From IMG/VR virus record IMGVR_UViG_3300037138_000245, positions 1 to 26,093 of that record: a DNA stretch of 26,093 bases. One strand, given 5' to 3'. The notes beneath the pieces were generated by a model. That model did no database searches. It was given only the letters and a program-made list of their open reading frames with translations, and was not told the origin of the DNA. This DNA comes from a virus. Made by a program: the position numbers and the translations under genes. This document shows, piece by piece, positions 44 to 22,047 of the stretch (position 1 is the first letter of the stretch; each line of letters opens with the position of its first letter).

Positions 44-490
<447 letters not shown>

Positions 491-679
491 TTGGGCATTC
501 CGACTGAAGATCTACGATCCATCGCCAGCATCCTCGCCGCCGGCTTCCTCCGGCACCGCGAACAACTTCGGCGAAAACCTCCCCTTGATAGTTCCGCAAC
601 TTCGAGCCCTCATGGACACGAGGTTAACTGCCATGAGAATGGAGAACGAAGTGGAGACCGCGATGCGGAAACAGATTGA
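491..679 (+). CDS. Small unknown protein opening the recombinase operon
   Basis: A 62-residue protein read from TTG at 491. The start is chosen because GAGGTGA (477-483) sits 7 bases upstream and an in-frame stop at 482-484 prevents extension. The translation begins with a short hydrophobic helix-like stretch (ASILAAGFLRHREQL), then becomes polar and rich in Ser, Asn, Asp and Glu. No catalytic motif is visible. It overlaps the DUF2924 gene that follows, so the two are probably translationally coupled. I have an impression that similar short proteins precede DUF2924/recombinase pairs, but I cannot verify it here. No function is assigned. It could also be a fortuitous frame, although the ribosome binding site argues otherwise. 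Confidence 0.5.
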   Translation: MGIPTEDLRSIASILAAGFLRHREQLRRKPPLDSSATSSPHGHEVNCHENGERSGDRDAETD

Positions 680-1169
680 TGAGCTGAGCAGGATGACGGT
701 CGGCCAGCTCCGCCAGAAGTACCTTGGGGTGTTTGGCGATGAGTCCCGATCAAATCACAAACAGTTCCTGTTTCGGCGGATCGCCTGGCGCATCCAGGCA
801 CTGGCCGAGGGCGGCCTCTCCGAACGTGCGCGCCGCCGCGCGCTGGAAATCGCCAACGATGCAGACCTGCGCATCCGGGCTCCCAAGACCAAGTTCGGGC
901 CAGACGTCACCCTGGACCCCACGCTCAGCGTCAGCCGCAAGGTGGCCAGCGCTCTCGACCCACGGTTGCCGCCGCCGGGAACCTACTTGGAACGCGAGTA
1001 TAAGGGCCGCCGAGTCATCGTGAAGGTCCTCGTGAATGGATTCGAATTCGAGGGCGAGATCTACCGGTCCTTGAGTGCGATTGCCAGCGAAGTGGCTGGA
1101 ACGAAGTGGAACGGCTTCCTCTTCTTCAACTTGACGTCCACGGAGGAAAACCCCGATGGCAAGGAATAG
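633..1169 (+). CDS. DUF2924 family protein, recombinase-associated
   Basis: The protein matches the DUF2924 pattern. An N-terminal segment (MTVGQLRQKY, FGDESRSNHKQFL) is followed by the basic helical block FRRIAWRIQALAEG-LSERARRRA-EIANDADLR. The C-terminal part contains EYKGRR-V-V-NGFEFEG-YRSLSAIASEVAGTKWNGFLFFNL. DUF2924 genes are typically found next to serine recombinases in phages and transposable elements, and their biochemical role is not established. The start is uncertain. ATG 633 has GAGG 9 bases upstream, ATG 639 is also possible, and ATG 663 has GGAG 6 bases upstream. The frame stays open back to 378, but that extension does not resemble the family and was not used. The last 14 bases overlap the recombinase gene. 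Confidence 0.85.
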   Translation: MRMENEVETAMRKQIDELSRMTVGQLRQKYLGVFGDESRSNHKQFLFRRIAWRIQALAEGGLSERARRRALEIANDADLRIRAPKTKFGPDVTLDPTLSVSRKVASALDPRLPPPGTYLEREYKGRRVIVKVLVNGFEFEGEIYRSLSAIASEVAGTKWNGFLFFNLTSTEENPDGKE

Positions 1170-2739
1170 CACCGCACTAGCGCCGGCAAAGGCGTCGAAC
1201 GGATCGGCCGATGTGAAGACCGTCCGCTGCGCGATTTACACGCGCAAGTCCACGGAGGAGGGACTCCAGCAGGAGTTCAACTCGCTCGATGCCCAACGGG
1301 AAGCATCGGAGGCCTTCATCGCCAGCCAGAAGCACGAGGGCTGGCAGGTGATCACCGACCATTTCGACGATGGCGGGTACACCGGCGGCAATATGGATCG
1401 CCCGGCCTTGAAGCGGCTCCTGGCGGCGGTCGAAGCTCGGACGGTAGACTGTATCGTGGTGTACAAGGTCGACCGCCTCAGCCGGTCCCTGCTCGACTTC
1501 GCACGAATCATCGAGGTCTTCGACCGGAACGGCGTTAGCTTCGTGGCGGTGACCCAGCAGTTCAACACGACGAGTTCCCTCGGACGCCTGACGCTGAACA
1601 TCCTTTTGTCGTTCGCCCAGTTTGAGCGCGAGATCATTTCGGAGCGCACGCGCGATAAGATGTCGGCCGCGCGGCGGAAAGGCAAATGGATTGGCGGCCA
1701 TCCGGTGCTCGGGTATGACATCGATCCCAAGGGCGGCCGGATCATCGTCAATCCTGCCGAAGCGGAGCAGGTGCGAACCATCTTCGGCCTATACATCGCG
1801 CATGGCTCGCTGCTGCCCGCCCTTCAGGAAACGCAGCGAGTCGGTCTCTTGAGCAAGCACTGGACCACCGAAGACGGCAATGTGCGGGGTGGGAAACCAT
1901 TCACCAGAGGCGCGCTGCACGCGACCCTGACCAACGTGCTCTACACCGGAATGGTTGACCACAAGGGCGTCCTATACCCAGGCGAGCACGACCGAATCAT
2001 CGACCAGGAGACCTGGGATCGGGTCCACGAGACCCTCCAGCACAATGGCAGCACGAAGGGTGCCACCGTTAGGAACAAGCTGGGGGCTCTGCTGCGCGGC
2101 TTGCTCTTCTGCGTGCCGTGCGGAACCCCGATGATGCACACCTACACAATGCGGAAATCGAAACGCTATCGCTACTACGTCTGCTACAACGCCCAACAAC
2201 AGGGATGGCAGAATTGCGAGACGAAATCGGTTTCTGCTCAGGCCATTGAGACCGCGGTGCTGGATAGCATCCGCCGCATCGGAACCGACCCAAAGCTGGC
2301 GGAGGCAGTTGCCGCAGAAGCCCTCGATCAGATGGCGCGCCGCCGCCGGGATCTAGACCAGGAGTTCGACACCCATCGGCGGAGCCTCCGGCAATTCAAC
2401 CAGGCCCTTGCCCGCGAGGCCGGCGACACCAGCGTGGACTCCGGCGCGCGGTTCGACCGGATTGTCGGCATTCAAAAGGAAATCGAAACCACTGAACACC
2501 GCCTGACGGAATTGGCTGCGGAGCGGAAGTCCTGTGACCAAGACCGCATCAACGCAAACGATCTCCGCAGCACGCTTGCCGAGTTCGACTCGATCTGGTC
2601 GTCCTTGACCACCAGGGAGCAGGAGCAGATGATCCATCTGCTGGTCGCCAAAGTCGGCTATGACGGGCGAACCGGCAAAGTCACCGTCAATTTCCGCAGC
2701 GCAGGAGCCAAGGAGCTATGCCAAACAAACATCCAGTAA
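1156..2739 (+). CDS. Large serine recombinase (site-specific integrase/resolvase-invertase family)
   Basis: This 527-residue protein cuts and rejoins DNA at attachment sites to integrate or excise the element. The N-terminal resolvase domain (about 24-165) starts CAIYTRKSTEEG, where Ser32 is the expected nucleophile, and contains YKVDRLSRSLLDF and the SFAQFEREIISERTRDKM helix. A recombinase domain follows (about 175-300, with GYDIDP and GKPFTRGALHATLTNVLYTG). A zinc beta-ribbon then has CVPCG near residue 318 and Cys pairs near 342 and 355. A coiled-coil-rich C-terminal part covers about 385-490. This is the usual length and order for large serine integrases. ATG at 1156 overlaps the DUF2924 gene by 14 bases. 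The family normally acts without high-energy cofactors. Excision usually needs a directionality factor, for which the neighbouring small genes are candidates. Confidence 0.95.
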   Translation: MARNSTALAPAKASNGSADVKTVRCAIYTRKSTEEGLQQEFNSLDAQREASEAFIASQKHEGWQVITDHFDDGGYTGGNMDRPALKRLLAAVEARTVDCIVVYKVDRLSRSLLDFARIIEVFDRNGVSFVAVTQQFNTTSSLGRLTLNILLSFAQFEREIISERTRDKMSAARRKGKWIGGHPVLGYDIDPKGGRIIVNPAEAEQVRTIFGLYIAHGSLLPALQETQRVGLLSKHWTTEDGNVRGGKPFTRGALHATLTNVLYTGMVDHKGVLYPGEHDRIIDQETWDRVHETLQHNGSTKGATVRNKLGALLRGLLFCVPCGTPMMHTYTMRKSKRYRYYVCYNAQQQGWQNCETKSVSAQAIETAVLDSIRRIGTDPKLAEAVAAEALDQMARRRRDLDQEFDTHRRSLRQFNQALAREAGDTSVDSGARFDRIVGIQKEIETTEHRLTELAAERKSCDQDRINANDLRSTLAEFDSIWSSLTTREQEQMIHLLVAKVGYDGRTGKVTVNFRSAGAKELCQTNIQ

Positions 2740-3173
2740 TCACAGTCACGACCCAGCCCGAGGACGGAGCCGTACAGGTCGAGGTGGCAATCTCGTTGCG
2801 CCCGCGCCGCCCCAAAGCCAGCCCAGGCGCACAAAACGCGCCCGTTGCAGAATTGGCGGGACCGCCGCGCATTCCTCGGATCACCCGGCTAATGGCCCTC
2901 GCCATCAAGTTCCAGGAGATGGTCGACCGTGGCGAGGTCCACGACTACGCCGACCTTGCCCGCCTCGGCTACGTCACGCGCGCCAGGATTACGCAGATCA
3001 TGAACCTACTCAACTTGGCACCCAACATTCAGGAGGAGATCCTGTTGGGCCAGGGGACGTCAAAGGTAGTCACGGAGACACACCTCCGCCGCATAACGTC
3101 AGAGGTTTCCTGGCCACACCAGCGGGAACTCTGGAGCAGAATGAGTCCTTTCGGACCAATAGTCCACCCTTGA
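2718..3173 (+). CDS. HTH-like protein coupled to the recombinase gene
   Basis: A 151-residue protein whose ATG lies 22 bases inside the recombinase gene, in another frame, so it is almost certainly co-translated. The N-terminal 50 residues are Pro/Ala-rich and probably unstructured. Residues about 55-120 resemble a ParB/KorB-like helix-turn-helix: ITRLMALAIKFQEMVD, then DYADLARLGYVTRARITQIMNLLNLAP, then IQEEILLGQG. This suggests DNA binding. A role as regulator or directionality factor of the recombinase is inferred from position only. After position 3173 about 60 bases separate it from the convergent defence operon, and I see no clear terminator there. Confidence 0.75.
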   Translation: MPNKHPVITVTTQPEDGAVQVEVAISLRPRRPKASPGAQNAPVAELAGPPRIPRITRLMALAIKFQEMVDRGEVHDYADLARLGYVTRARITQIMNLLNLAPNIQEEILLGQGTSKVVTETHLRRITSEVSWPHQRELWSRMSPFGPIVHP

Positions 3174-3233
3174 ACTTCTGGTTGGCCACGAAGCTACGTC
3201 GTTCTTGAACATCAGGGCTGGCGGCATGTTTTG

Positions 3234-6200
3234 CTAAGCTGGGCCCACGACCTTCTCCAGAAGTTTGCGAATGTACGTGTCCGGGTCGTCTTTCTGGAAC
3301 AACACATTGCACGCCTCGAATTCCCCTTTGGTCATGCCGTCAGACCACCACTTCACCTGCGCGTGAGGCGTGTTCGCCACGATGAACGACGCGAGGGTAA
3401 CAAGCGGGTCGCCGAAACGGACCTCAAGTTCTTTGATCGTCTTATGGAACGCAATCTTGGGGTCGCTGCGGCCTTCCAGGTTTCGTATGCCCTTGGGGTC
3501 CACGAACGTGATGTATTGGCGCTTGCCGACGAGCAGCCAAAGAATGAAGTCCGGGTGGAAGTTGCCAGCCTCAAAGAAGCCGACGCCGCGCCCGCGGCTG
3601 AGATTCCGGAGCAGGTACATCTCGCGCTCCGCGAAGAATGGCTTGTCGGCATCGTAGAAAGTCCGCAGGTCGCGGACGAAATCACTCTCTCCCTCGTTCA
3701 GATCAACCGGACTGATTTCAATCGCGCTGCTGGTGCAGTGCAACAGCGGGTAGTATAGATGCTGCCCAAACCCGATGGCGTGGAGGCTTGAGAAGTTCCA
3801 GTCCTGGATCTTCTTCGATTCCACCAAGACCTTGAGTTCGCCCAATTTCTCCGCGATGTCGGCAGCCGACTCCTCGATCAATAAGCGGTATTCAGCGATG
3901 AAGTTAGGATCGTCCTCCGCAAGCTCACGCAGCTCCAAAAACTGCTGCTCATAAGCGCTTTTCTCGTACTGGTAATAGCGGAGCGCATACTTTTTGAGCA
4001 ACGCCGTGGCGATCTCCTGCCATTCGCGGACTTGGGCGAAGCTCCGGAATTCCAATTCTTCGGCCGGGATGTAGAGCGTATACCAATCGTGGCGGTCGAG
4101 CAGGTCCGAGATGTTCTGCCTGGAAAGATTCAGGTTGAACCAGGCGCGCTCAGCCTTGAAACGCTGCAACTCAAAATAGATCTCGTCCAGGTTGAGGAAC
4201 GGTATGTGCACGCCCGGTTTCAGGCGGCCCTCCTCACGAATGGCCACTTCAGTTTTGTCGGAACCGCGGGCGCTCGCCATGGACTGCAAGCGAGGATACC
4301 AATCCACCACGGCCCTCGCTTTGAGAAGCTTTTCGGGAGGTGGCCCAAGCGTAGGCTTCGGCCCGGTGCGTTTGAAATCGATGCCCTCCCTCAGCTTCAC
4401 CGTCTTGAGCTGCTTGCCGTTCAGGTTCCGCACGACAGGGAGTATGAACGTCGTCCGCTGTTCGTTGGCTGGGAGGCCCTCCTCCTCCAGATATTCCTTG
4501 AACTGCTTCATGTAATCGGCGTGCACTCCGATTACATTTAGCGTCTCCAGAATGCCCACATGCTCCGGAGCCTTGGCGTCGCTAAGCTTGGTGCTCCGTT
4601 TCAGACAGAACTCGTATCCCTTGAGGCGAACACCGCGTCCGAAGAGTTGGATGATCTGAGAGCCTTCGCTCTTGCCGATGTTCATCAATCCCATCGTGCT
4701 GACGCGCCAGCTACTCCAGCCTTCGCTGAACTTGCGGGAACCTATGAGAAGGTTAACCAGGCTGTCGGCGTTATTGAGGCTCGCAAAGAGCGACTTTGAG
4801 AAATCCTTGTCTTGTGTTGTCACACCCTGCTCCTGGCAGAGTTTCAACAGCTTCGTCTCGTCGCCGACGTTGATCACGCCGAAGTAGTCGTTCTCGCCTA
4901 CCCGGATGCCCAGTTCGCCCTCGGCACCCTTCAGATTATCGACGTGCAGTGCCGCCTCGCTTTCCGAATTGAACAGCGTCTGAAGGATCTTTTCGTAATG
5001 GGCAGACGGCGTCGCGTGCTGTTTGATCAGGTAGCCAAAGGCGCCGGCGAAAATCGGCCGCCCTCTCTCATCGTTCAGACCTGGGTCCCCGTTGAGCAGT
5101 CGATCTATCGACGCGACGCTCTCCTGGCGTTCGCGGACAAACCGGTCGAAGAACAACAGCACGTCCAGAACGTCTGAGACCGCACGTTTGTTCTCGGTGC
5201 GCACGGCGTTCACGCTTCCGCCAACGAAGATCCACAAAGGCTTTTCGATTAGAAAAGGTGAAAAGCTCGTCTTCCGGTCAGCATACAGCCGCTGTTGCTG
5301 ATAAAAGGCGAGCAAGCCAGCGGTCAGGTAGAGTCGCCGCTGCTCCTCGTTTTGCTCCTCGGAGAGGTTGCGGATATAGTAATCCTTCCCGTAGCCGTCT
5401 TCGTAAAAATACTTGTAGGAATAGTCAACCAGGATGCACCTGGCGTACTCCTGGGTCAGTGCCGGCTTGTTGGCCGCTTTCATCGCCTGGCCGAACGTAG
5501 CAGAATACTCGAACGAAAAACCGCTTTCACTGAGGCGGTTCCGCATCCCCATCCACTCCTCGCCGCCGGCTCCCCGATGCCCCTCATCCACGAGGACCAG
5601 ATTGTCGCCCTCAAAGGCATCAATGGCCACCGTCTTGGCGCCCATCTCCTCCTTCAGTTTCGTCACCTCGATGATCTCAACGCCGTGGCCGGTAAAGAGT
5701 CCGCGGCCATCCTTGTCAAACATCTCGGCGGGCATGCCTGAAGCTTCAAACTCCTGGAGGTGCTGGCGGCTGAGCCCTTCGTTTGGGGTTAGGAGGATCG
5801 TTCGGTTGAGTTCGCCTGCGCGCCCGTTCTGCTCCAGATAGTGCCTGTACTGGAGGATGTTGACGTGCATGAGGAGGGTCTTACCCGAGCCAGTCGCATT
5901 CCAGAAGGCGAGCTTTCGCAGATCTTCAGACGTGTATTCTCCTACACGATCACCTTGCGGCTTGTCCTCGTTGAACGCCGCAATGTGAGCGTTGAGGTCG
6001 GAAAGCAGGTTGTCCGGATCGCGGAACCAGCGGTCCAGGTAAATCTCCGTGAAGAGAAGAGTGAGGTACTGAAAATACTTGAATTTCAGAAGCCTCTTTT
6101 CCTCGGCGTTTCGCCGCTCGGTGATCTGCCTCCAGTGTCGAACGATATTCTGGTCGTACGCGAGGAGAAGGTCATGCGGTAGTTCCTTCCTCTCAAACAA

Positions 6201-6419
6201 TCGCAATCGGAGCGCCTGGTGAAGGTTGGAGACGTTGTTCTCGTCCAGCCCTTCCAGATGGGCGCCCTTGAGGTCCTTGGCCAGTTCCTCGAAGCGAGTG
6301 ACGCCGAAGAGTCCCAGCATCCATTGGTTCAGGACCAGCCGCTGGTGAAACTTCAGCGGTTTCGCTGCCGCAGGCGTCGCGCGGCGGCGGGTAGATGAGT
6401 TGGTCGTCCTTGTCGGCAT
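3234..6419 (-). CDS. Type III restriction Res-like helicase-endonuclease
   Basis: This 1061-residue protein would translocate on DNA and cleave it as the restriction subunit of the operon. The superfamily 2 helicase motifs are visible. Walker A is ATGSGKT at about 174-180, Walker B is LVDEGHRG near 276, an SAT-like motif occurs at YSATFG, and motif VI is QLFGRGVRLKG near 593. The C-terminal end has a PD-(D/E)XK nuclease signature: FHPDFILW near 953-957 and FVDPKG near 972. The length and domain order fit type III Res subunits. ATG 6419 follows the methyltransferase stop by 8 bases, with AAGGA just upstream. It is the last gene of a four-gene minus-strand operon. The presence of a SNF2 helicase in the same operon is unlike a classical two-gene type III system. 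No DUF1998 domain of DISARM DrmA/DrmB is visible. Confidence 0.88.
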   Translation of the reverse strand: MPTRTTNSSTRRRATPAAAKPLKFHQRLVLNQWMLGLFGVTRFEELAKDLKGAHLEGLDENNVSNLHQALRLRLFERKELPHDLLLAYDQNIVRHWRQITERRNAEEKRLLKFKYFQYLTLLFTEIYLDRWFRDPDNLLSDLNAHIAAFNEDKPQGDRVGEYTSEDLRKLAFWNATGSGKTLLMHVNILQYRHYLEQNGRAGELNRTILLTPNEGLSRQHLQEFEASGMPAEMFDKDGRGLFTGHGVEIIEVTKLKEEMGAKTVAIDAFEGDNLVLVDEGHRGAGGEEWMGMRNRLSESGFSFEYSATFGQAMKAANKPALTQEYARCILVDYSYKYFYEDGYGKDYYIRNLSEEQNEEQRRLYLTAGLLAFYQQQRLYADRKTSFSPFLIEKPLWIFVGGSVNAVRTENKRAVSDVLDVLLFFDRFVRERQESVASIDRLLNGDPGLNDERGRPIFAGAFGYLIKQHATPSAHYEKILQTLFNSESEAALHVDNLKGAEGELGIRVGENDYFGVINVGDETKLLKLCQEQGVTTQDKDFSKSLFASLNNADSLVNLLIGSRKFSEGWSSWRVSTMGLMNIGKSEGSQIIQLFGRGVRLKGYEFCLKRSTKLSDAKAPEHVGILETLNVIGVHADYMKQFKEYLEEEGLPANEQRTTFILPVVRNLNGKQLKTVKLREGIDFKRTGPKPTLGPPPEKLLKARAVVDWYPRLQSMASARGSDKTEVAIREEGRLKPGVHIPFLNLDEIYFELQRFKAERAWFNLNLSRQNISDLLDRHDWYTLYIPAEELEFRSFAQVREWQEIATALLKKYALRYYQYEKSAYEQQFLELRELAEDDPNFIAEYRLLIEESAADIAEKLGELKVLVESKKIQDWNFSSLHAIGFGQHLYYPLLHCTSSAIEISPVDLNEGESDFVRDLRTFYDADKPFFAEREMYLLRNLSRGRGVGFFEAGNFHPDFILWLLVGKRQYITFVDPKGIRNLEGRSDPKIAFHKTIKELEVRFGDPLVTLASFIVANTPHAQVKWWSDGMTKGEFEACNVLFQKDDPDTYIRKLLEKVVGPA

Positions 6420-6427
6420 GCAGTTCC

Positions 6428-9400
6428 TTAAACCTCCTGCACGTCGAACATCAGGCGCGCAAACTCTTCCTCGATGAGGCGCACTTTCCAGGTGTCCTCG
6501 TCCTTCTTGAGGTTTTCCAGGTTGTTATCCCCATTCACGTAAATGAGGTCGAACTCCATGTCCTTCGTGTTGTAGCCTTGCTTCTGGAAGAATTCGTCCA
6601 GATTGGCGTTAGGGTTCTCCTCAAGGTTGCGCCAGATCACCAGGACCTTCTCGCCACCCGAATTGGTGCCGTGAACGACCCGGAAGCCGCGAATGGTATC
6701 GATGTGCTTCACGTGCAGCCCCAGCAGGTAGTTGAACGTTTCTACGAGATCTGCACTCGTCAGATCCGTCTCGCCGACCGTACCAGTAGAGACCTTGAGG
6801 GTGTAACTGAATGGCTCTCGGAACGCATCAATGTTCAATAGCGAGGCACTGCCCTTACTTTCGACGTCCAGCATATAACGGAGGTTATAGTCCTCTCGCA
6901 GACCTGCATTTGTTTCCAGGAGCGATCCCTGCACCTCCGTGCGCCGTAACTCGAGATTGTTCAGTGAGTCTTCATAGGATTCCAAACGGACGTACTTGAA
7001 CACATGACTGGACCCACGTCGAGACACGGGCGTACCGTCCTTCCAGTCGTCCGAATATATAACTTTCTTGACACGAGGTATCAATACCGTCTCGAAGTAG
7101 CCTGCCATCTCGACGCAGATGTACTTCATTCGAACTGAGGTCTGTCTTGCGACCTCAATGGCAGCCTGAACCGTGCTTCCCGAACCCGCAAAAAAATCCA
7201 GCACCAGCGAGTCCGGCGCACTGCCGAAGGATATCAGCCGTTTCAGAAGTTGAGGGGGCTTGGGATTGTCAAAAAGGTCCGAGCCCTTTCCAAATAGCGC
7301 ACTGAGCGCATATGCTCCAAGGCGGCCATCGAGGTCTATCACGCTTCGAAGTGAATCTTGGTAGTCCTTCAGATAGAGCTTGATCTGAACGATGCGGTTC
7401 TCGTCTGGTCCGTAAATGAGTCTGTCCTTGTCAATGTACTCACGCTTCATCGTGCTTTCTGGAAACCGATACCCATTGGCGGGCTTCCGCATTGGGCGCC
7501 CGGTTTCACGGTGGAGAATCTCGAAATCATATCCATTCGGATGCGGATTGTGAACACTCTGAGATCCTGTATAGACGCCGTCCTCGTCGACGAATTTATA
7601 GCGGTCCACCTCGGCTAGAATGTCCTCGTTATCCTTGATGAAGGTCCTGATCCCATCTTGTATTTCGCTCATCGCCAAGCCAGCTTCCTTCAATCTCTGA
7701 TACTCCGCCTGAAGTAGCTCTTTTGCGTCCGCGAAGGAATTCTTCCAAATTGGTTCCACAAAAGCTGCATCCTTCGCGTAACACACAACATACTCATGCT
7801 CGACGGCAATTTGGGTTGGGTTGTTATCCCTCGCGTTGCGCCAGACAATATCGCCGATGTGGTTCCCGACGCCAAATACTTCGTTTAACAGAAGCTGGAG
7901 ACGAGGTAGTTCGTTAGTGTCGATGGACGAGAAAAACACGCCATCCGAACGAAGTAACTGCCGGCCCAGGCTGATACGGTCCGCAATCATCGAAAGCCAT
8001 GAGCCGTGCTTGTAGCCATCTTTGTAGGGAAAGATGTCCTTCTTTGTGTTATAGGGCGGATCAATGTAGATAGTCTTGGCTGCTCCACGATAAGAATTCA
8101 ATAGAGTAGACAGCGCTTGAAAACTATCAGCCTGCACCAGAAGCCCATCGGTAGCGTCATCGATATCGGCCAGTTTCGGCGAAGACAGCAAGCGATCCTT
8201 GAACTCTTTCCCAAAATGTCGCGTGTCGAGGACCAGGGTCGGCTGCGAGCGGAGGAACTCAGCGGTAGGAGGAACGGAGAATCCTGGCTCCGCAAAGTCA
8301 CCGTGAATGAGGTCGAGCCGAAAAAGACGGACCCACTCATCCACTTGTGACGCATTGACGGCGATCTCACCGTAGAGCTCCTCTGGCACTCGGTCGAGAG
8401 TCATGCAATAGTTTGATTCCACTACGAATTTCTTCTTCAGCCACAGCTTCTTTTGAAAGTCTTCCAATTGCGCCACAAAGTCAATCAGCTTAGTGGCGAG
8501 GTTCCGTAGAACCCGTATGCGTGAAAGGTACTGCTCTACTCTCGGCGCCGACGATGATTCGACATCGTCGAGATGCATCACCTCGTTCTTGATGAAAAAA
8601 TCGAGCTCCCGGCGAAGGAAGGAACCCACATTCTTATGGATGAAATAGTCGAAGGTATTCCGTGCTGTGTAGTCCTTCAGGTGCTTTGTGAGAACTGTGC
8701 GGTTCGGATCAGCCTCGGAGGGATCGAGAGCGGCCAATGCAAACAGCCATGCCGCCGTTGCTGGGGCTTCGAAAATGGCCTTTGTCGCGTTCGCGTTGAG
8801 CGCATCCTGCCGACGCTTCTCTGCATCCGGTCTGAATTCGAACCGGATCACCAACTCACCATTCTCCTCGGCGACGGTGTCCCCCTCAGCCAAAATGAAA
8901 CGTCGGTCATTGCCATTGGCGGGTTTGTTGTTGTCCTTTTCGGTGTCGGCGGCAGCCAGTCGAAAATGGACTCGTCTTCCATCTGAGAGCTTGAAAGCGT
9001 AGTCACGCAGGTATTCGCTGCTCTTGATGTAGTACTGATCGTGGTTTGCCCAGTAGAGCTTCACCTCTTCCCCTTCGTAGGGAATCGCATAAACGCCTTC
9101 TTTGTAGCGCCGAAGCGACAGAAAGTCCCCCTCGTTGTAGTACCGACGGAAGAAGTTGAACAGATCAGAGAAGACCTGGTTCTCCAGGGCAGATAGGTCG
9201 ACGGCGGTCGACAGTTTCTCGCGAAGCTCCTTCACCTTTGGCGACAACTCGGGATCGACGCCCGCGTCCTTCAGTTGCTGAACCAGCTTGTCAAGGTCAG
9301 TCTTCAACTGGACCGAGTCGCTCGACTTGTACTGCGAGAACGCCTCCTTGATTTGCGGCAGGAGATCGTTGTCCAGGAAACGCTCGATTTCTGAGCGCTT

Positions 9401-9499
9401 CGAATTCATGATCCGGTAGATGCCAAAGTCGAGATCGGCGCTGTCAAGCTGGAACAGTTCCCGGAGTAAGTTCTTTAGTTTCGTTCGGCTGTCTGCCAT
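6428..9499 (-). CDS. Large beta-class adenine-specific DNA methyltransferase, type III Mod-like
   Basis: A protein of 1023 residues. The AdoMet-dependent methyltransferase core has motif IV first ([11 protein letters not shown], Asp near residue 480) and motif I later ([16 protein letters not shown], near 768-780). That is the beta-class order typical of type III Mod N6-adenine enzymes. The target recognition region should lie between them. About 470 residues precede the catalytic motif and contain helical, charged segments, and about 240 follow motif I. This makes the enzyme far longer than a usual Mod (about 600-700 residues). The start is ATG 9499; an upstream TTG at 9535 would overlap the SNF2 gene and is less likely. 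The gene lies 20 bases after the SNF2 stop. Its role would be to mark self DNA and, as in type III systems, to give specificity to Res. Confidence 0.92.
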
Positions 9500-9519
9500 G
9501 TGTGATTTCCCAAATGAGG

Positions 9520-12405
9520 CTACTCCACCTTCCAACGGATGGTGAAAATCGTCTCACGCTGCGTTCGCTGCGTCATGCGCTCTTCCAGCTTCGTGATCAG
9601 CCGGTCGCGCTTGTCCTTCACTTCATCTTCGAGGTCGAAAATCCGCTGGCGTTGCCGCCGTTGTTCCTTCTCTGCCCCGCGGATGTCATTTTGAATCCTA
9701 AGCTGTTCCTCGGTCGTCGTCGTCAGCCGGGCAGCGCGGTTCAGTCCTTTGATTCGAGCTTTGGTGTCAGCCAGTTCCCGCTCCGCGGCGATGATCTGAT
9801 CGTCCGCCCACTTCTCCAGGCGTTCACGCTCCTCCTGGAAATGCTTGTTGTTCGTCTCCAGCGAGCGGCTAATGGTCGCGGCCGTGTGGCGTTCAGCTTC
9901 CCGGCTAAGCGGCGGCAGTACTTCGGCGGCGACACCGCCCGCAACAACAGCGGCTTCACAGTGGAAGAGCTTTTCGCAAGTCTCCTGGTCAAGCGCCCTG
10001 CCGTCGTCCGTCAAGCCGGAGAAGAGAAGATACTCTTCGCGCTCGAACGAATCGATTGCCAGACGATTGAGCACAAGAATGCCGGACTTGCCCTTGAGGT
10101 TCTCCACCACCCGTATGCGCACGGGATGGCCGGTAATCCGGAAGCTCAGAGTGGCCTCTGGCGTGGGGCACGCCTTCGCTGCGTCGATGGCATGCTCGCC
10201 CAAAGGGTGCGAGATCCGGTAGAGAAATTCTCCATCGATGTTTTGGTGCGTCTTCGAGATCAGATGGTAGCGGCCGGGCTTGACGTCCGGTCGCGGCGTA
10301 TGGCGCAAATCGAAGGCCAGGGTTGCGTCGTCGAAGGTGGCAAGGTCGCCAAGGATGAACTTCGACAGTTGCCAGAACATGCGGCCAACCCAATCGAGGC
10401 GTTGGCGGGTTTCGTCAAGTTGGACCCGGAGCCGGTCGTGAACGTCCTCATCGAAGTTCTCCAAGAGCTTTCGTCTCGTATCGACGAGACGGCTTTGGAT
10501 AGCTTCTTCCATTTCGGTTTGCAACTTCAGGAAGGCCGCGTCGATTTGTTCGGGGGTGCGGCAGGTCTGGTAGATGGCGAAGACACGTTTCTCGAAATCG
10601 ACGCCGGATTCGAGGGTGCCCAGTATGTCGTCGCTGGCGCCGAAGACGCCGGAAAAGAGATTGAACTTCTCGTTGAGGAGCTGGAAGACTCGCTTGTCCG
10701 CTTCATTCCGCTCGTTGAGGAAATTGATGACCACCACATCATGCTTCTGGCCGTACCGATGACAGCGCCCAATGCGTTGCTCGATTCGCTGAGGGTTCCA
10801 GGGCAGGTCGTAGTTGATGACGAGCGAACAAAATTGGAGATTGATGCCTTCCGCGGCAGACTCGGTCGCGATGAGAATCTCTGCGTGATCCCGGAAGTGC
10901 TCTATCAGAGCCAGGCGCTTGTCGGCCAACTTGGAGCCACTGAGCCGCCCCAACGGTGAATTCAGGCGCTCCCATTCCTGGTAGATGCGGTCTACGTCAG
11001 GGCCGGTATTCGTCCCGTTAAACAGCACGATTCTCCCGCCGTAGCCGTTGGCTTCCAGGAAGTTGCGCAGGTACTCCTGCGTGCGGCGAGACTCCGTGAA
11101 GACGACGGCCTTGCGCAGTGCCCCGATTTTCTCCATCTCATCGAAGCCGATCTGCAGTGCCGTGAGGAGCGCGCGGGTCTTTGCGTCGATTTGGATGGAT
11201 CGGGCCCACTGCACGAAGCGGTCGAGTTCAGCGATTTCGGAGTCCAGCTTCTTCAGGTCGACCGGCGCGGGCGATGCGGGTGGATCGCAAGCCGGGATGT
11301 CGCCGCCGTTCGCGGGCTCGTCCAGTAGCTCAGCATTCAGTTCATCTTCTTCGATCAGTTTCTCTGCCAAGCCCTCGCCTTCAGGCAAAGCCGAACCAGC
11401 GTGGGAGCGCGCTTTGAGATCCAACAGGCGTTGGCGGATCATTTCGAGCGTACCTGCCACGGCCTGGGAACTGGAGGACAGCAGCTTGCGCAAAATCATC
11501 GTCGTCAGTTCTCGCTGACGACGCGGAATGGAGTAGGTGTCATCCCTACGCAGGAACGCGGAAACGGCTTCGTAGAGTTGCTGTTCGGAGTCGGCGGGCG
11601 TAAACGGGCGCGTAATCGGCCGGCGCTCGGTGTATTTCACGTACTCCAGGACTTGGCTTCGCAGCGTCCGGTAGCAGAACGAACGAAGACGGTCCTTCAA
11701 GCCGTCCAGGTCTCCGTCCTTCGAACAGTATTGCGTTCGGAAGGCGGTCAGGTCGCCGAACAGATGCTCGTCGATCAGGGTAGAGAGGCCGTAGAGTTCC
11801 AGCAATGAGTTCTGCAGGGGGGTGGCGGTCAGAAGCAACTTCCTGCGGTCCGCGATGGCTGAGCGGATGGCTTGGCCCATCTTGTTGCTTGTGCGGTATG
11901 CACCTCGGAGCTTGTGGGCCTCATCGATTACGACGAGATCCCACGGCACGAGTTGCACCTCACTTGCCATGCGGCTGGCGAAGTTCATGGAAACGATGAC
12001 GACTCCATGGCCGGCGAAGGGTGCCGCGCTCCCTTCACGGATGGCCTCCCGGTATGACGCCGAATCGAGGATGATGCTGGGAAGATGGAACTTCTCCGAG
12101 AGTTCCATGCTCCACTGTTTGCGGAGAGATGCGGGGCAAATGACTAGCAACTTCCGGCGACGCTCGGCCCAACACTGGCACAGCACCAGGCCCGCCTCGA
12201 TGGTCTTGCCGAGGCCGACTTCATCGGCCAGCAGCACGCCTTTCGATAGAGGCGACCGGAAAGCGAACAGCGCGGCCTCAATTTGGTAGGGGTTAAGATC
12301 GACGGCGGCATCGAACAGGGAAACCGACAGCTTCTCCACACCGTCCGTTCCGGACCGGCGGGTCAATTCGTTGCCGAAATACTTTGCATGGTAGCTGGTC
12401 GACAC
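9520..12405 (-). CDS. SNF2/RapA-type DEAH helicase of the defence operon
   Basis: This 961-residue ATPase is predicted to translocate on double-stranded DNA. The SNF2 motifs are visible. Motif Q is NPYQIEAALFAF, Walker A is DEVGLGKT (61-68), Walker B is VVIDEAHKLRG (DEAH at 161-164), and motif III is LLTATPLQNS. The C-terminal RecA lobe contains AVVFTESRRTQEYL, ATESAAEGINLQF, and motif VI IEQRIGRCHRYGQ (about 538-550). A charged coiled coil fills about 830-940. GTG 12405 is used as the start, with AAGGA close upstream. Related SNF2 proteins occur as DrmD in class 1 DISARM and beside other methyltransferase systems, but the partners here differ. The gene lies 178 bases downstream of the SSB-tip gene and 20 bases before the methyltransferase gene. 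Confidence 0.92.
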   Translation of the reverse strand: MSTSYHAKYFGNELTRRSGTDGVEKLSVSLFDAAVDLNPYQIEAALFAFRSPLSKGVLLADEVGLGKTIEAGLVLCQCWAERRRKLLVICPASLRKQWSMELSEKFHLPSIILDSASYREAIREGSAAPFAGHGVVIVSMNFASRMASEVQLVPWDLVVIDEAHKLRGAYRTSNKMGQAIRSAIADRRKLLLTATPLQNSLLELYGLSTLIDEHLFGDLTAFRTQYCSKDGDLDGLKDRLRSFCYRTLRSQVLEYVKYTERRPITRPFTPADSEQQLYEAVSAFLRRDDTYSIPRRQRELTTMILRKLLSSSSQAVAGTLEMIRQRLLDLKARSHAGSALPEGEGLAEKLIEEDELNAELLDEPANGGDIPACDPPASPAPVDLKKLDSEIAELDRFVQWARSIQIDAKTRALLTALQIGFDEMEKIGALRKAVVFTESRRTQEYLRNFLEANGYGGRIVLFNGTNTGPDVDRIYQEWERLNSPLGRLSGSKLADKRLALIEHFRDHAEILIATESAAEGINLQFCSLVINYDLPWNPQRIEQRIGRCHRYGQKHDVVVINFLNERNEADKRVFQLLNEKFNLFSGVFGASDDILGTLESGVDFEKRVFAIYQTCRTPEQIDAAFLKLQTEMEEAIQSRLVDTRRKLLENFDEDVHDRLRVQLDETRQRLDWVGRMFWQLSKFILGDLATFDDATLAFDLRHTPRPDVKPGRYHLISKTHQNIDGEFLYRISHPLGEHAIDAAKACPTPEATLSFRITGHPVRIRVVENLKGKSGILVLNRLAIDSFEREEYLLFSGLTDDGRALDQETCEKLFHCEAAVVAGGVAAEVLPPLSREAERHTAATISRSLETNNKHFQEERERLEKWADDQIIAAERELADTKARIKGLNRAARLTTTTEEQLRIQNDIRGAEKEQRRQRQRIFDLEDEVKDKRDRLITKLEERMTQRTQRETIFTIRWKVE

Positions 12406-12583
12406 GTATCCTTACTCAGGCCGGCGCAGCACAGCGCGACCGTGCGCCATCTTTTCCCGTAAATGACCATTGTCGATCATTGATGGCTTCTCCGTGTAGT
12501 CGTCCGTGAAATACGGTGGCTGCCTTCAGTTGCCCAACGACTGGGATACCTGACGCCGTCGCTGAGCCCTGTCGAGCAGGGTC

Positions 12584-13135
12584 TTAAAACGGGACGTCGT
12601 CATCTGAAATTCCCGGCGCGTCCTCGACGTTCCCGTCTGCTGTTTCCTCGGCGGGAAGATTTCCAAAACCCTCGGGCGGTTCTTCAACCGGGGGCATCTC
12701 GTTGTGGTTCAGCTCAAGCAGTCCGAACGTATTGGGTGCGGGCCGAGTAAAGATCTCCCCGCGTTTCGCGTAGCCACCGAGAGATCCGCTCAGCGACACC
12801 CTATTGCTCTTGTCAACAGGCCGGCCAATCGCTTTAAGGATCTCAGTGACGTGGAGCGGCTTGTTGACCTTGAGAATCGCCTCCCGAGACTTGGCGACGG
12901 CACTGCCAGGTCGCAAGGTCTGTTCGGGCGCGAGTTTCTCGGGAGTAGCCTCCTTGGGGAGCAACCGGATGGAGTCCTGAAGCGCTTGAAGGTACGCGTG
13001 GGCCGCCGCTTGCTGCAGCTCAAGCTCTCGAATCTCCTGCTGCTTCTTTTCAATGCGTTTCAGAATCTCTTCGCGAATTCGCATGACGGGGTGGACCAAG
13101 TTCCCATCATAGCCGCATAGGGGGCAGATCGTCAA
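12584..13135 (-). CDS. Zinc-knuckle, coiled-coil, HARE-HTH-like protein with an SSB-type acidic tip
   Basis: This 183-residue protein opens the defence operon. Visible parts are: a CPLCGYDG knuckle at 4-11, which could bind zinc as a dimer because only two Cys are present; a charged coiled coil at about 19-55; and a winged-helix segment at about 77-142 (SREAILKVNKPLHVTEILKA ... GGYAKRGEIFTR). The winged helix resembles HARE-HTH, a domain found with restriction and chromatin proteins. An acidic, Pro/Glu-rich tail ends SDDDVPF. The tail closely resembles the C-terminal tip of bacterial SSB (DDDIPF), which docks repair and replication enzymes. I infer an adaptor or sensor role. The start is TTG 13135 with no good ribosome binding site; ATG at 13084 would lose the knuckle. 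A short hairpin (ccctg/caggg, 12567-12580) lies just after the stop. Confidence 0.75.
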   Translation of the reverse strand: MTICPLCGYDGNLVHPVMRIREEILKRIEKKQQEIRELELQQAAAHAYLQALQDSIRLLPKEATPEKLAPEQTLRPGSAVAKSREAILKVNKPLHVTEILKAIGRPVDKSNRVSLSGSLGGYAKRGEIFTRPAPNTFGLLELNHNEMPPVEEPPEGFGNLPAEETADGNVEDAPGISDDDVPF

Positions 13136-13221: not shown

Positions 13222-14094
13222 TTGGACCCAGATAAAGAGCTGCTTATCAATCGTTTGGAGTCCTGCAAGCGGATTTCGCCGCGCGGGGTGGAATATTGGA
13301 TGGCTCGGGACCTCCAGCCTCTTCTCGGCTACTCCAGATGGGAAAACTTCGCGAATGTCATTGAGAAGGCGAAGATGGCGTGTGAAAGCGCTGGGGCCCC
13401 CCCATCCGATCAGTTTCGTGACATCACGAAGGGGATAGCCGCGGGCAAGGGCGCAGAGATCCAACGAGTGGATTTCTATCTTTCCCGCTATGCCTGCTAC
13501 TTAATCGCCATGAACGGCGACCCGGCCAAATCGGAGATCGGCCAAGCCCAGACCTACTTCGCGGTCCAAACCCGCCGCCAAGAGGTTCAGGACCAGGACC
13601 CGGAACAGCGCATCGAACTGCGCCAACGGGTCAAGGAGGCGAACCGCAACCTCAATTCGGCAGCAAAAGGCGTCGGCGTGCAGAACTACGGGCTATTTCA
13701 CGACGCAGGATATCGTGGCCTGTACGGCATGGGGCTCACCGATCTCAAAGTCCACAAGAGAATCCCTCCCACAGACGACCTCCTCGACCGGGCCGGCCGC
13801 ACCGAATTGGCCGCCAATGAGTTCCGGATTACGCAGGCGGAAGACAAACTGCGCCGCGAGAACGTAAAGGGGGAGAGTGCGGCGATCAACACCCACCGCG
13901 AGGTAGGACAGGCGGTGCGGACCACGATCCAGAAGCTCGGCGGAAAGTTGCCAGAAGATCTTCCGCCCCAGCCGTCAATCAAGCGGCTGTCCGCAAAGCA
14001 CCGCGCGAAGCCTATCGCTGGCGGCAAGAAGCAGTCATTGGCGCTTCTTCCGGCTGCGCGCATAGAGGAAACCAGTACCAAGGTGGAGGACTGA
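13222..14094 (+). CDS. dinD: DNA damage-inducible protein D (BRO-N family)
   Basis: This 290-residue protein has the DinD organisation. A BRO-N-like N-terminal domain includes GVEYWMARDLQPLLGYSRWENF, DITKG, and VDFYLSRYACYLIAMNGD with KSEIGQAQTYFAVQTRRQE. A helical half follows with NYGLFHDAGYRGLYGMGLTDLK and AANEFRITQAEDKLRRE. E. coli DinD is SOS-induced, similar in length (about 275 residues) and has been reported to inhibit RecA filament activities. The start is TTG 13222 with GGAG 7 bases upstream. The next gene starts immediately after the stop (TGA then ATG). Its position divergent from the defence operon suggests that a DNA-damage response and restriction are linked here, but that is inference. 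The C-terminal 50 residues are Lys/Ala-rich and may be disordered. Confidence 0.92.
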   Translation: MDPDKELLINRLESCKRISPRGVEYWMARDLQPLLGYSRWENFANVIEKAKMACESAGAPPSDQFRDITKGIAAGKGAEIQRVDFYLSRYACYLIAMNGDPAKSEIGQAQTYFAVQTRRQEVQDQDPEQRIELRQRVKEANRNLNSAAKGVGVQNYGLFHDAGYRGLYGMGLTDLKVHKRIPPTDDLLDRAGRTELAANEFRITQAEDKLRRENVKGESAAINTHREVGQAVRTTIQKLGGKLPEDLPPQPSIKRLSAKHRAKPIAGGKKQSLALLPAARIEETSTKVED

Positions 14095-16779: not shown

Positions 16780-17293
16780 CGTCAGCCTCGACCAGGCACT
16801 CCCCGTCATCCGGAATCTCGCGGGGCGCAAGGCGAACGCGTTCGCACGTCGCTGCCGCATCGCTATCGACGAACGCGAAGACGTGGAAAGCCAACTTGTT
16901 CTGACCTTCATCACCCGCTGGCCGAAGTTCGATGGCGAAAGGGCCTCAGTCCAGACTTTTGCCTCGCGGCTGATGGACAAGGAACTGACGTCGATACTGC
17001 GATATCGTCTCGCAGAAGGCCGCCAGCCGCGCCAACTTCCTATCCCGGACGCCGGCCCAACGTGGGAGCTAATTCGCCAGTTTCGCATTGATCTCGAACG
17101 CGCTTTGGCCCCTCTGCCTCAGAGTGTCCGCGAAACCGCGGTCGCTTTGTCTTGGTTCTCCGCAGTTGATACTGCGCGTGTGGTGGGGTGTTCCCGCCAG
17201 ATGATCGGGAGGCGGAAACATCAAATCCGGGAAGCTCTCCTCGCTGCGGGCATCGGGGCGAACTACTTCGTCGGCAGAGGCGCCAGCCAATGA
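16772..17293 (+). CDS. Sigma-70-like factor (regions 2 and 4)
   Basis: A 173-residue protein started at GTG 16772, chosen because AGGAGG (16761-16766) lies just upstream. Residues about 15-75 look like sigma region 2 (RKANAFARRCRIAIDEREDVESQLVL... FDGERASVQTFASRLMDKELTSIL). Residues about 115-160 look like a region 4 HTH (LAPLPQSVRETAVALSWFSAVDTARVVGCSRQMIGRRKHQIREAL). If it works as a sigma factor it would direct host RNA polymerase to phage promoters. It could instead be a sigma-derived DNA-binding regulator that no longer binds polymerase. It overlaps the gene before it by 8 bases and the primase after it by ATGA. Confidence 0.75.
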   Translation: MADVSLDQALPVIRNLAGRKANAFARRCRIAIDEREDVESQLVLTFITRWPKFDGERASVQTFASRLMDKELTSILRYRLAEGRQPRQLPIPDAGPTWELIRQFRIDLERALAPLPQSVRETAVALSWFSAVDTARVVGCSRQMIGRRKHQIREALLAAGIGANYFVGRGASQ

Positions 17294-18015
17294 CCACCGA
17301 CTCCATCGCTCGTGCTCTCAAGGCCCGTCGTTCCGGCGCCGGCTGGATGGCAAAATGCCCCGCCCACGACGACAACAACCCGAGTCTGAGCATCCGGGAA
17401 GTGGATGGCAAAGTGTTGCTGCACTGCCACGCGGGATGCGGGCAGCGCGAGGTGATCGAAGCGTTGAAGGCCAAAGGGCTGTGGCCGGAGCGCCCGCGGA
17501 ACCCGCGCCGGCAAATCGTAATGACCTACGATTACACGGACGAGTCCGGTAATCTGCTTTACCAGGTCGTCCGGACCCAGCCGAAAGGCTTTTTTCAGAG
17601 GCGTCCTGACGGCGAGAACGGCTGGATCAACAAGAAGAGCAAACGGCAGGTGCTCTATCACCTGCGCGAAGTCATTGACGCCGCCATCGTCTTCGTCGTC
17701 GAAGGCGAGAAGGACGTTGAGACGCTCCGCGAGCACGGCTTTGTCGCGACGACGAGCGCGGGCGGTGCCGAGGCGCAATGGCTGCCTGAGTTCACCGAAA
17801 CGCTTGCCGGGCGCGAAGTCATTGTCATCCCCGATAACGATAAGCCGGGCCGCGACCGGGCCGCCCGCATCGCTCGTGCTCTGATCGGCCGCGTGACGCG
17901 GCTTGTCATTCTCGAACTCGAAGCCGCCAAGGATGTAACGGAGTGGTTCGAAAAGGGTCACGGTGAGCTTGAACTGATCGAGTCGGTTGAAAAAGGCCTG
18001 GCGGCGACGGCATGA
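17290..18015 (+). CDS. CHC2 zinc-finger/Toprim DNA primase
   Basis: A 241-residue primase-type protein. ATG 17290 overlaps the previous stop as ATGA. The zinc-ribbon residues C23-x2-H26 (KCPAHDDNNPSLSI) and LHCHAGC (C46, H47, C50) match the CHC2-type primase zinc domain. The Toprim core shows VVEGEKDVETL (catalytic Glu near 136), TSAGGAEAQW, and VIPDNDKPGRDRA (acidic pair near 180). It would make RNA primers or position the primase on DNA for phage replication. The next gene is the helicase, so the functions fused in P4 alpha protein are split between two genes here. Confidence 0.9.
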   Translation: MTTDSIARALKARRSGAGWMAKCPAHDDNNPSLSIREVDGKVLLHCHAGCGQREVIEALKAKGLWPERPRNPRRQIVMTYDYTDESGNLLYQVVRTQPKGFFQRRPDGENGWINKKSKRQVLYHLREVIDAAIVFVVEGEKDVETLREHGFVATTSAGGAEAQWLPEFTETLAGREVIVIPDNDKPGRDRAARIARALIGRVTRLVILELEAAKDVTEWFEKGHGELELIESVEKGLAATA

Positions 18016-19478
18016 CGAACGAAATCCGCGACGAGACCGATATCAACACCTTCGTCCAGCGATTTGAAACAGGCGCGACGGCCGGCGGCCCAGATCTTCT
18101 TTCGCGTCTCCACAACGACCACGGCAACGCGGAGCGCCTTATTGCGATGTATGGCGAGGATTTAAGGTATTGCCACGCTTTCAGGAAATGGCTGGTGTGG
18201 GACGGCATGCGCTGGGCTGTTGACGACACCGATCAAGCCCGCCGCCTTGGCAAACAGGCGATGCTCGAATTCCTGAGGCTTGCCATCGAACGTGGAGACA
18301 ACGAGAAAGCCGAGAAGTTCGCGCGTGCATCACTCGACGCCCGCCGCATCAGCAGCATGCTCTCGATGGCTGAATGCGAAATTTATGCCCGCCCGGCCGA
18401 TCTTGACACGGACCCGTTCGCGCTGAATTTCCTGAACGGCACGGTCGATTTGCGCACGAGCGAACTGCGCGAACACCGGCGTTCGGACTTCATTACGAAG
18501 CTCGTTCGGTACAGATACGCTCCGTCGGCGGCATGTTCCCGATGGCTCGCTTTTCTGGTTCAGGTGATGGGTGGCGCGCCGGCCGCATCGGACGACGATC
18601 TCGACCGCTCGCAGCGCTTGGTGGCTTACCTTCGGCGGGCGCTGGGTTACTCGCTCACTGGCACGACAATCGAGAAAGCCGTTTTCATTCCGTTCGGCAC
18701 CGGAGACAACGGCAAGAGTACGATGCTCAGTACCTTCCGGAATCTTGTGGAGGAATACAGCCATTTGCTTCAAGTGGACACGCTGATGGTGCGGCAGGAG
18801 TCGAATAACACCCAAGCCGACCTGGCGGACCTGCGCGGGGCGCGTTTCGTCCAGACTTCCGAGACGGAAGAGGGCCAGCGGCTCGCTCAGGGCAAGCTGA
18901 AGCGGATTACGCAGGGCATGGGCAAAATCAAGGCCACGCGGAAATACGAAAACCCAATCGAATTCGCCGAGACGCACAAACTGTGGATGGACACGAACCG
19001 GAAGCCCACCATCCGCGACGTGGACGACAAGGCAACTTTCAACCGGCTCCACCCGATTCCGTTCACGGTGACGATTCCCAAAGACCAGATCGACAAGGAA
19101 CTCCCCGACAAACTGCTGGGCGAAGCTGAAGGGATTCTAGCCTGGGCGGTCGAAGGCGCCCGGCTCTGGTATGCCGAGGGGCTCGCGAAACCTGCGGAAG
19201 TCGAGGCCGCGAAAGATAGGTGGCGGGAGGATATGGACCAACTCGGGCGGTTCATCGATGAGCGCTGCGTCACCGGTGACGGGTTCCGAGCGCGCGCGGC
19301 AGCTTTGTATGCCGATTACAAGCAGTGGGCCACCGACGGCGGCGACCGGTCGCTGTTGACCTCCACCGCATTCGGGACGAAGCTTACGGACCGGGGGATC
19401 ACGAAAACCCACTCAGAGCGTGGCGCGGTATACCTCGGAATCGGGCTTCGGTCCGACGACGAACAGCCGCGTGGCTGA
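18012..19478 (+). CDS. P4/D5-type phage replicative helicase
   Basis: A 488-residue superfamily 3 helicase, ATGA-coupled to the primase gene. An N-terminal D5-like region (about 30-200, with HNDHGNAERLIAMYGEDLRYC and FLNGTVDLRT) precedes the ATPase. Walker A is FGTGDNGKST near 229-237, and Walker B and sensor regions follow at DLRGARFVQTSE and HKLWMDTNRKPTI. The C-terminal part (about 390-460) includes WREDMDQLGRFIDERC and a winged-helix-like segment. This architecture is typical of phage and plasmid primase-helicases that open the origin and unwind the fork. It ends within the first copy of the repeats at 19475, consistent with an origin next to its own initiator. Confidence 0.93.
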   Translation: MTNEIRDETDINTFVQRFETGATAGGPDLLSRLHNDHGNAERLIAMYGEDLRYCHAFRKWLVWDGMRWAVDDTDQARRLGKQAMLEFLRLAIERGDNEKAEKFARASLDARRISSMLSMAECEIYARPADLDTDPFALNFLNGTVDLRTSELREHRRSDFITKLVRYRYAPSAACSRWLAFLVQVMGGAPAASDDDLDRSQRLVAYLRRALGYSLTGTTIEKAVFIPFGTGDNGKSTMLSTFRNLVEEYSHLLQVDTLMVRQESNNTQADLADLRGARFVQTSETEEGQRLAQGKLKRITQGMGKIKATRKYENPIEFAETHKLWMDTNRKPTIRDVDDKATFNRLHPIPFTVTIPKDQIDKELPDKLLGEAEGILAWAVEGARLWYAEGLAKPAEVEAAKDRWREDMDQLGRFIDERCVTGDGFRARAAALYADYKQWATDGGDRSLLTSTAFGTKLTDRGITKTHSERGAVYLGIGLRSDDEQPRG

Positions 19479-20475: not shown

Positions 20476-22047
20476 ATGGCGACACCTCCGGCGACCATAA
20501 CGCCCGCGATGGCTCGGCGCATCGAAATCTGGCCGACCGACCGGCTGGTGCCGTACGCCAGGAACGCGCGCACGCACTCTGCCGAACAGATAGCGCAGAT
20601 CGCGGCATCCATCTTGGAGTTCGGCTTCACCAATCCGATCCTGGTTGACTCGATGGATGGGATCATTGCCGGCCACGGTCGTCTGCTGGCTGCCCGCAAG
20701 TTGGGCCTCGCGGAGGTGCCAGTGGTAGTTCTGGACCATCTCAGCGAGACGCAGCGGCGGGCATACATCCTCGCGGACAACAAGCTCGCGATGAATGCCG
20801 GATGGGACGAGAAAATGCTCGCCAGCGAACTGCGCGAACTCGAAACAGACGGCACGGACCTCGCGCTCATTGGCTTCAGCGACGAGGAACTGGAGGCGCT
20901 GCTCGAAGACGGCGACGCGCCGCCGGAGGATGTGACCGACGAGGTCCCCGAACCGCCAGCCCAGCCGGTAACCCAGCCCGGCGACGTGTGGTTGATCGGA
21001 GCCCACCGCCTGATCTGCGGCGACTGCCGCGACGGGGGAACGATTCGTGTTCTGTTCAGCGATGCGCTGGCCAATGTGGTCGTGACCTCGCCGCCCTACG
21101 CGACGCAGCGCGAGTACGACGCATCGAGCGGCTTCAAGCCGGTTCGTCCGGATGAGTACGTCGCGTGGTTTGGCGCGGTCGCTGCTGGAGTCGAATCGAT
21201 TCTGGCGCCCGATGGCTCCTACTTCCTCAACATCAAAGAGCACGCCGACAACGGGGAACGCGACCTGTACGTGTTGGACCTCGTCATCGCGCACCGGCGG
21301 CAGTGGGGCTGGCGCTTCGTAGACACGTTCTGCTGGCGCAAGACCGATAACGGCGTGCCGGGCGGCTGGGGAAACCGATTCAAAAACGCTTGGGAACCGG
21401 TGTTTCACTTCTGCCGCCAGCAGCAGATCAAGTTTCGGCCGCAGGCCGTGAGCCACGAGTCGGAGGACTGCTTCGACTACTCCCCGAACAATCCGAAATC
21501 AAACTCCGGGAGCGGGCTCCTGGGGACCGGCGCGCGGGGCGCGGCCGCGGACGGGGGGAAGAACCAGAGTGCGTGGCAGCGCAGCAGGAATAGTCTGTCC
21601 GACGATTCGGATGGCCGGCACACCGGACTGGCGCGCCCGAGCAACGTGGTGGAAGTGAAATCGGAATCCTCGCAAGGTTCGCACTCCGCTCCGTTCCCGC
21701 GCGCGCTGGTGGAGTTCTTCTTGCTGGCCTACTCCGACGCCGGCGACGTGGTCTTCGATCCGTTCATGGGCAGCGGAACGACGATGGCCGCGGCGGCGTT
21801 GCTCGACAGGACCGGTTACGGCTGCGAGATCAGCCCGGCCTATTGCGATGTGATTGTGCGGCGGGTTATGAATCTGACCGGCGAGAACCCGGTCCTCGCG
21901 GCCACTGGCGAGACGTTCGCCGCTGTTGCGGAGTCTCGCGGCGTCCCGGCAGACCAGGCGATGAATCCGAAGCAGAACGACGCGCTGCGCATCCAGCACC
22001 ACGGACCCAATCCGCACTACGGACCGAAAAGGAAAGCCCAGGCATGA
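20476..22047 (+). CDS. ParB-domain/DNA methyltransferase fusion with SPPY motif
   Basis: This 523-residue protein combines an N-terminal ParB/Srx-like domain (about 15-125: WPTDRLVPYARNARTHSAEQ, IAASILEFGFTNPILV, GHGRLLAARKLG) with a beta-class methyltransferase. Motif IV is VVTSPPYATQ (near 202-211) and motif I is FDPFMGSGTTMAAAAL (near 426-440), followed by GYGCEISPAYCDVIVRR. The SPPY form is common in N4-cytosine enzymes but also occurs in some adenine enzymes, so the base is uncertain. Such fusions are frequent in phages and are thought to modify phage DNA against host restriction. No cognate nuclease is adjacent. The sequence between the motifs has an insertion with polar Gly/Ser/Asn stretches. 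The start is ATG 20476 without a clear ribosome binding site; ATG 20509 is an alternative. It overlaps the second fusion gene by ATGA. Confidence 0.92.
   Translation: MATPPATITPAMARRIEIWPTDRLVPYARNARTHSAEQIAQIAASILEFGFTNPILVDSMDGIIAGHGRLLAARKLGLAEVPVVVLDHLSETQRRAYILADNKLAMNAGWDEKMLASELRELETDGTDLALIGFSDEELEALLEDGDAPPEDVTDEVPEPPAQPVTQPGDVWLIGAHRLICGDCRDGGTIRVLFSDALANVVVTSPPYATQREYDASSGFKPVRPDEYVAWFGAVAAGVESILAPDGSYFLNIKEHADNGERDLYVLDLVIAHRRQWGWRFVDTFCWRKTDNGVPGGWGNRFKNAWEPVFHFCRQQQIKFRPQAVSHESEDCFDYSPNNPKSNSGSGLLGTGARGAAADGGKNQSAWQRSRNSLSDDSDGRHTGLARPSNVVEVKSESSQGSHSAPFPRALVEFFLLAYSDAGDVVFDPFMGSGTTMAAAALLDRTGYGCEISPAYCDVIVRRVMNLTGENPVLAATGETFAAVAESRGVPADQAMNPKQNDALRIQHHGPNPHYGPKRKAQA

Follow-up and report, generated by a model that had tools for sequence, protein, structure and literature searches.

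This locus raises the question whether four minus-strand genes in close order make up one defence system and, if so, of which kind. An earlier note had read them as a distinct or little-described system, in which a type III core of Mod and Res is extended by an SNF2 motor and a small adaptor protein. We analysed the DNA at its full length of 26,093 nt; this whole stretch is called the window, and all window coordinates refer to it (Table 1). All four genes exist as they had been placed, and the gaps given for them, 8 bases between Mod and Res and 20 bases between SNF2 and Mod, were correct. The small gene, however, is separated from SNF2 by 178 bases and lies outside the shared region that begins at about 12487. 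We concluded that the window is a prophage which carries a three-gene type III cassette as cargo.

Table 1. Features of the window, with positions, strand and the evidence or remarks belonging to each.
Feature	Position	Strand	Evidence or remarks
tRNA-Asn	44-118		tRNA search
DUF2924 gene	378-1169		near tRNA-Asn and integrase
Large serine integrase	1156..2739	+	Pfam Resolvase/Recombinase; PHROG 95 integrase, 399 bits
Res	3234..6419	-	1061 aa; SF2 ATPase and C-terminal PD-(D/E)xK nuclease
Mod	6428..9499	-	1023 aa from the ATG that fits relatives; beta-class amino-methyltransferase
SNF2/RapA-like ATPase, third cassette gene	9520..12405	-	GTG start
Conserved cassette leader with CAATGATCGACAATGGTCAT	12406..12487	-	four aligned cassette copies; limits of blastn homology
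Small phage gene, flanking the cassette	12584..13084	-	coiled coil, possible HARE-HTH, acidic linker, SSB-like tip DDDVPF
Bro-N phage gene, divergent from the small gene	13222..14094	+	Pfam Bro-N; PHROG 8036, 288 bits
Phage primase (CHC2/Toprim) and D5-type helicase genes	17188..19478	+	
Terminase small subunit	24135-24629	+	PHROG 57, 106 bits
Open frame, reads like terminase large subunit	from 24601 to 26091	+	by eye

The prophage and the limits of its cassette

SNF2, Mod and Res form one minus-strand cassette (window 3234-12487). When the window was compared by blastn with L166, a virus contig, DNA homology ran from 12487 down to the stop codon of Res at 3234, and the gap within it was the recognition region of Mod. 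The upstream limit of this homology falls inside the space between SNF2 and the small gene.

An Acidobacteriota assembly (L009) carries the same cassette, together with counterparts of the integrase (77% identity to the window), DUF2924 (76%), Bro-N (72%) and the small gene (62%). The prophage host was probably a member of the Acidobacteriota. A second copy of the 3' end of tRNA-Asn, as an attachment site, was not found within the window. Two successive genes for ParB-plus-methyltransferase proteins (20476-22047 and 21843-23345), in which a 167-base stretch is repeated at 70% identity, are probably a tandem duplication.

The proteins of the cassette and the small protein beside it

The mechanical open reading frame of Mod starts at a TTG at 9535 and has 1035 residues. 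Its catalytic motifs follow in the order DPPY (motif IV), variable region, FAGSG (motif I), so that a beta-class Mod with DPPY before FxGxG and a recognition region between them, as in type III systems, was found; in beta-class Mods m4C and m6A formation are not distinguishable by sequence. The protein scored 106 bits with Pfam N6_N4_Mtase and is related to the Mod of EcoP15I (PDB 4zcf, 302 bits). PADLOC, which the earlier note had proposed as a check, gave MTase_III for Mod (791 bits), REase_III (PDLC03654) for Res (806 bits) and DrmD for SNF2 (640 bits).

The recognition region of Mod comprises approx. residues 541-780 of the 1035-residue frame. Identity of the L009 and L166 proteins to those of the window is about 93% for SNF2 and about 91% for Res, but only 55-59% for Mod. 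This difference is unevenly spread along Mod: identity is 92% in the first 60 residues and 87-93% in residues 961-1020, but drops to 7-28% in residues 541-780. Judged from these alignments, the mosaic is what exchange of the recognition region would produce. Prophage copies thus have the recognition region of Mod replaced and the remaining cassette kept nearly constant. An active restriction system would be expected to show such differing recognition regions among copies whose SNF2 and Res are 91-93% alike.

Res adjoins Mod and contains the SF2 ATPase motifs ATGSGKT and VDEGH as well as the PD-(D/E)xK nuclease motif HPD...DPKG, as seen in the alignment and in a survey of catalytic motifs; the nuclease motif is canonical, as in most relatives. 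It scored 37 bits with Pfam ResIII (cut-off 22.5), and the Res of Eco86II reached 2326 bits on the REase_III model. In a PDB profile search the window Res had no solved relative at E 0.01. DPHG or EPHG stands in place of DPKG in the Res of 13 relatives (L007, L008, L016, L018, L042, L045, L058, L067, L071, L080, L094, L096 and L098), in SNF2-bearing and other loci alike. The idea that loss of the nuclease lysine is confined to loci with a UvrD-nuclease was therefore rejected.

The SNF2 protein matched Pfam SNF2-rel_dom and Helicase_C, and its best solved relative was RapA. Its gene begins with GTG likewise in the relatives L009, L166 and L175.

The small gene had been drawn from a TTG at 13135. 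We place its start at the ATG at 13084, the methionine with which the relatives start, because the first 17 residues of the longer frame lack conservation in L009; there is also a sigma-70-like site at 13135-13106. The C-terminal tip of the protein, DDDVPF, was identical in 4/4 homologues, while the linker before it diverges, so the tip that the earlier note had pointed out is real; we take it to resemble the C-terminal tip of SSB. A HARE-HTH domain was matched below the cut-off (E 0.017 and 0.036), and the AlphaFold model had a mean pLDDT of 59 and was poor outside the coiled coil. The best profile matches in the PDB aligned repetitive TAL-effector stretches with residues 26-63; these were read as a composition artefact and rejected.

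Recurrence of the cassette and changes of partners

The recurrence of the gene set in other genomes had been proposed as a check. A protein search with Mod found SNF2, Mod and Res together in the plasmid neighbourhoods of the best matches, in Blastomonas, Aeromonas and E. coli, and in Conchiformibius together but in another order. In genomes, 79 Mod loci were scanned with family profiles, of which 68 had enough upstream sequence. SNF2 accompanied Mod in 52 of these 68 loci, mostly within about 150 bases, with Res nearly always next, and it was not in reach at the other 16, some of which hold close relatives of Mod; as there are at least 482 Mod relatives, of which the 79 are the most similar, the fraction with SNF2 is not a census. 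The reverse test, starting from SNF2, agreed: all opened plasmid and E. coli relatives with at least 39% identity also have Mod, and Res as well, save one locus broken by insertion sequences. Thus the type III core with an SNF2 motor is a recurrent unit, as had been supposed, but the small gene is elsewhere tied to Bro-N.

SNF2 also stands before Mod/Res pairs of other type III lineages, whose Mods are shorter (about 530-685 aa), in E. coli CFSAN004176, Cupriavidus, Ketogulonicigenium, Salmonella, Deinococcus, Rhizobium, Planctomycetes, Roseomonas, Sphingopyxis and Paracoccus; PADLOC classes were obtained for two of these short-Mod loci. In a tree of 76 SNF2 proteins, which covers at least 12 phyla, the distribution of giant-Mod and short-Mod partners requires at least three changes. 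As far as can be read from this tree, SNF2 is a portable helper that has taken up different Mod/Res partners on at least three occasions.

At some loci a UvrD-type gene occupies the SNF2 position before a giant Mod and Res (L007 5037-7982, L008 5246-8032 and L093 4064-6898). In L007 and L008 (Priestia and Athalassotoga) the encoded protein joins a UvrD helicase to a PD-(D/E)xK/Cas4-like domain; L093 is a virus contig with a gene of the UvrD kind. Genes of defence type (AIPR, Abi, AAA with DUF4276, DUF262) often lie inside the operon of relatives. In L009 a further gene lies between Mod and Res (about 12000-13120), and its translation looks PLD-nuclease-like by eye. Directly upstream of the cassette in L166, five successive plus-strand frames (2851-8815; 454, 492, 265, 440 and 455 aa) gave no PADLOC match and no Pfam match above the cut-off, the last being weakly actin/MreB-like; this stretch is possibly an unknown cargo operon. 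In E. coli L168, a type III locus with AIPR and Abi, the small HTH gene before SNF2 (13808-14008) is annotated mads1 (MAD1), a label that may derive from the HTH family alone.

Function of the cassette and comparison with known systems

Type III systems that make N4-methylcytosine were described by Murray et al. in 2021 (PMC8259958). In two of them, Eco86II and BspHIV, a third gene for a helicase-like SF2 ATPase lies 5' of mod, and this gene is found alongside mod and res in more than 500 genomes (PMC8259958). Experiments showed that Eco86II methylates DNA and cuts it about 25 bp from GAGCC; the third gene was unnecessary for methylation, and partly purified Eco86II still cut although mass spectrometry found no peptides of the third-gene (SNF2) product (PMC8259958). 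We found the Eco86II locus in E. coli NCTC86 (L167), where the third gene encodes an SNF2 protein of 963 aa, and a homologous SF2/SNF2 ATPase gene 5' of mod is present in the window. On the evidence of its genes the window cassette is very probably a type III restriction-modification system of the Eco86II kind, a confidence that covers type III membership and not the role of SNF2. A match to an already named system was what the earlier note itself had set against its proposal of an undescribed one. The three-gene set maps to the Eco86II/BspHIV kind, named in 2021 (PMC8259958), and the proposal therefore fails.

From EcoP15I and Eco86II we infer methylation and two-site, ATP-triggered cleavage by the window system. 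Mod would recognise a short asymmetric DNA site and methylate one strand. Res would join Mod and, with ATP, set the complex sliding on unmethylated DNA; cleavage would follow when two oppositely oriented complexes meet, and the lysogen would thereby be protected from other phages and plasmids. SNF2 would be an accessory motor on double-stranded DNA, which could remove proteins from the path of the sliding complex or process cut DNA. Since SNF2 has moved among distinct Mod/Res lineages, its target is most likely the DNA itself, and a role as fitted subunit is less likely; to this reading we give about an even chance. The travel of the cassette, the re-pairings of SNF2 and its replacement by a UvrD helicase-nuclease in some lineages argue for a shared DNA-level role of the second motor. 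Hundreds of type III systems have this third gene, and our literature search found no paper on its function later than that of 2021.

SNF2 may also be dispensable or do something unrelated, as Eco86II cut without its peptides. That the system is an ordinary type III one, with SNF2 merely hitch-hiking and without function in restriction, would fit this result, the needlessness of SNF2 for methylation (PMC8259958) and the 16 loci with no SNF2 in reach. However, conserved order and close spacing over at least 12 phyla, together with repeated pairing with different Mod/Res lineages, would hardly be expected of a gene without function, and we regard hitch-hiking as unlikely. Still further from the preferred type III reading is a DISARM system, degenerate or variant, in which SNF2 would stand for DrmD and Mod for the methyltransferase. 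DrmD was indeed the best family match of SNF2 (643 bits with NCBIfam DrmD_b, besides the PADLOC match), but the cut-off of DrmD_b is 950, and a second NCBIfam DrmD model gave 297 against a cut-off of 610. Nine other SNF2 proteins, all taken from type III loci, scored 630-720 bits on DrmD_b, also below its cut-off. Among the window genes scanned there was no DUF1998 protein (DrmB), PLD protein (DrmC) or DrmA, and the partner of SNF2 is a true Res with a nuclease motif. DISARM, which the earlier note had also set aside, is thus extremely improbable.

The small gene had been proposed as a fourth component, an adaptor; in that role the SSB-tip protein would bring SNF2 and Mod/Res to the single-stranded DNA of replicating phages. 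In the window, L009 and L175 the gene does lie just upstream of the type III cassette with the same orientation, and its tip is conserved. But the limits of homology leave it out of the cassette, and L166 has the cassette at 93/59/91% identity (SNF2/Mod/Res) without it. Homologues were found only in L009 (5432-5926), L175 and L176 (8001-8495), always adjoining Bro-N, and in L176 the gene is followed by a frame that looks by eye like a type I methyltransferase (HsdM) instead of SNF2. The other relatives have different small HTH genes upstream of SNF2, or none, and 72,556 plasmid records held no relative of the small gene. From these limits and neighbours we concluded that the small gene is phage backbone at the cargo site and not a component of the cassette; a four-component system is highly improbable. 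It is very improbable, too, that the protein assists in this prophage family any restriction cassette inserted next to it, be it type III or type I, and guides restriction enzymes or repair factors to the single-stranded DNA of phages.

Among known systems, ARMADA, BREX type 3 and the DUF499-centred Hma resemble the window in pairing a RapA-like SNF2 motor with a DNA methyltransferase. None of the components PglX, PglZ, YprA-like and DUF499 was seen among the window genes scanned, so that a DUF499 ATPase with methyltransferase and helicase is missing; HmaA was matched by PADLOC at only 170 bits, and Hma and ARMADA were rejected. Class 1 DISARM has a SNF2 helicase of the RapA/DrmD kind adjoining a DNA methyltransferase, as the window does, and is set apart from it by DrmA, DrmB and DrmC, by the DrmD cut-offs that the window protein does not reach and by the Res endonuclease of the window. 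EcoP15I and EcoP1I share the enzymology of Mod and Res with the window, and EcoP1I is, like the window cassette, prophage-borne; both are two-gene systems with a shorter Mod and no SNF2 gene. Eco86II has the same SNF2-Mod-Res order, the same protein sizes and the same catalytic motifs of Mod and Res, with identities to the window over nearly full length of 52% for SNF2 (970 columns), 39% for Mod and 42% for Res. It is an m4C type III system on an E. coli chromosome, whereas the window cassette travels in a prophage probably of Acidobacteriota.
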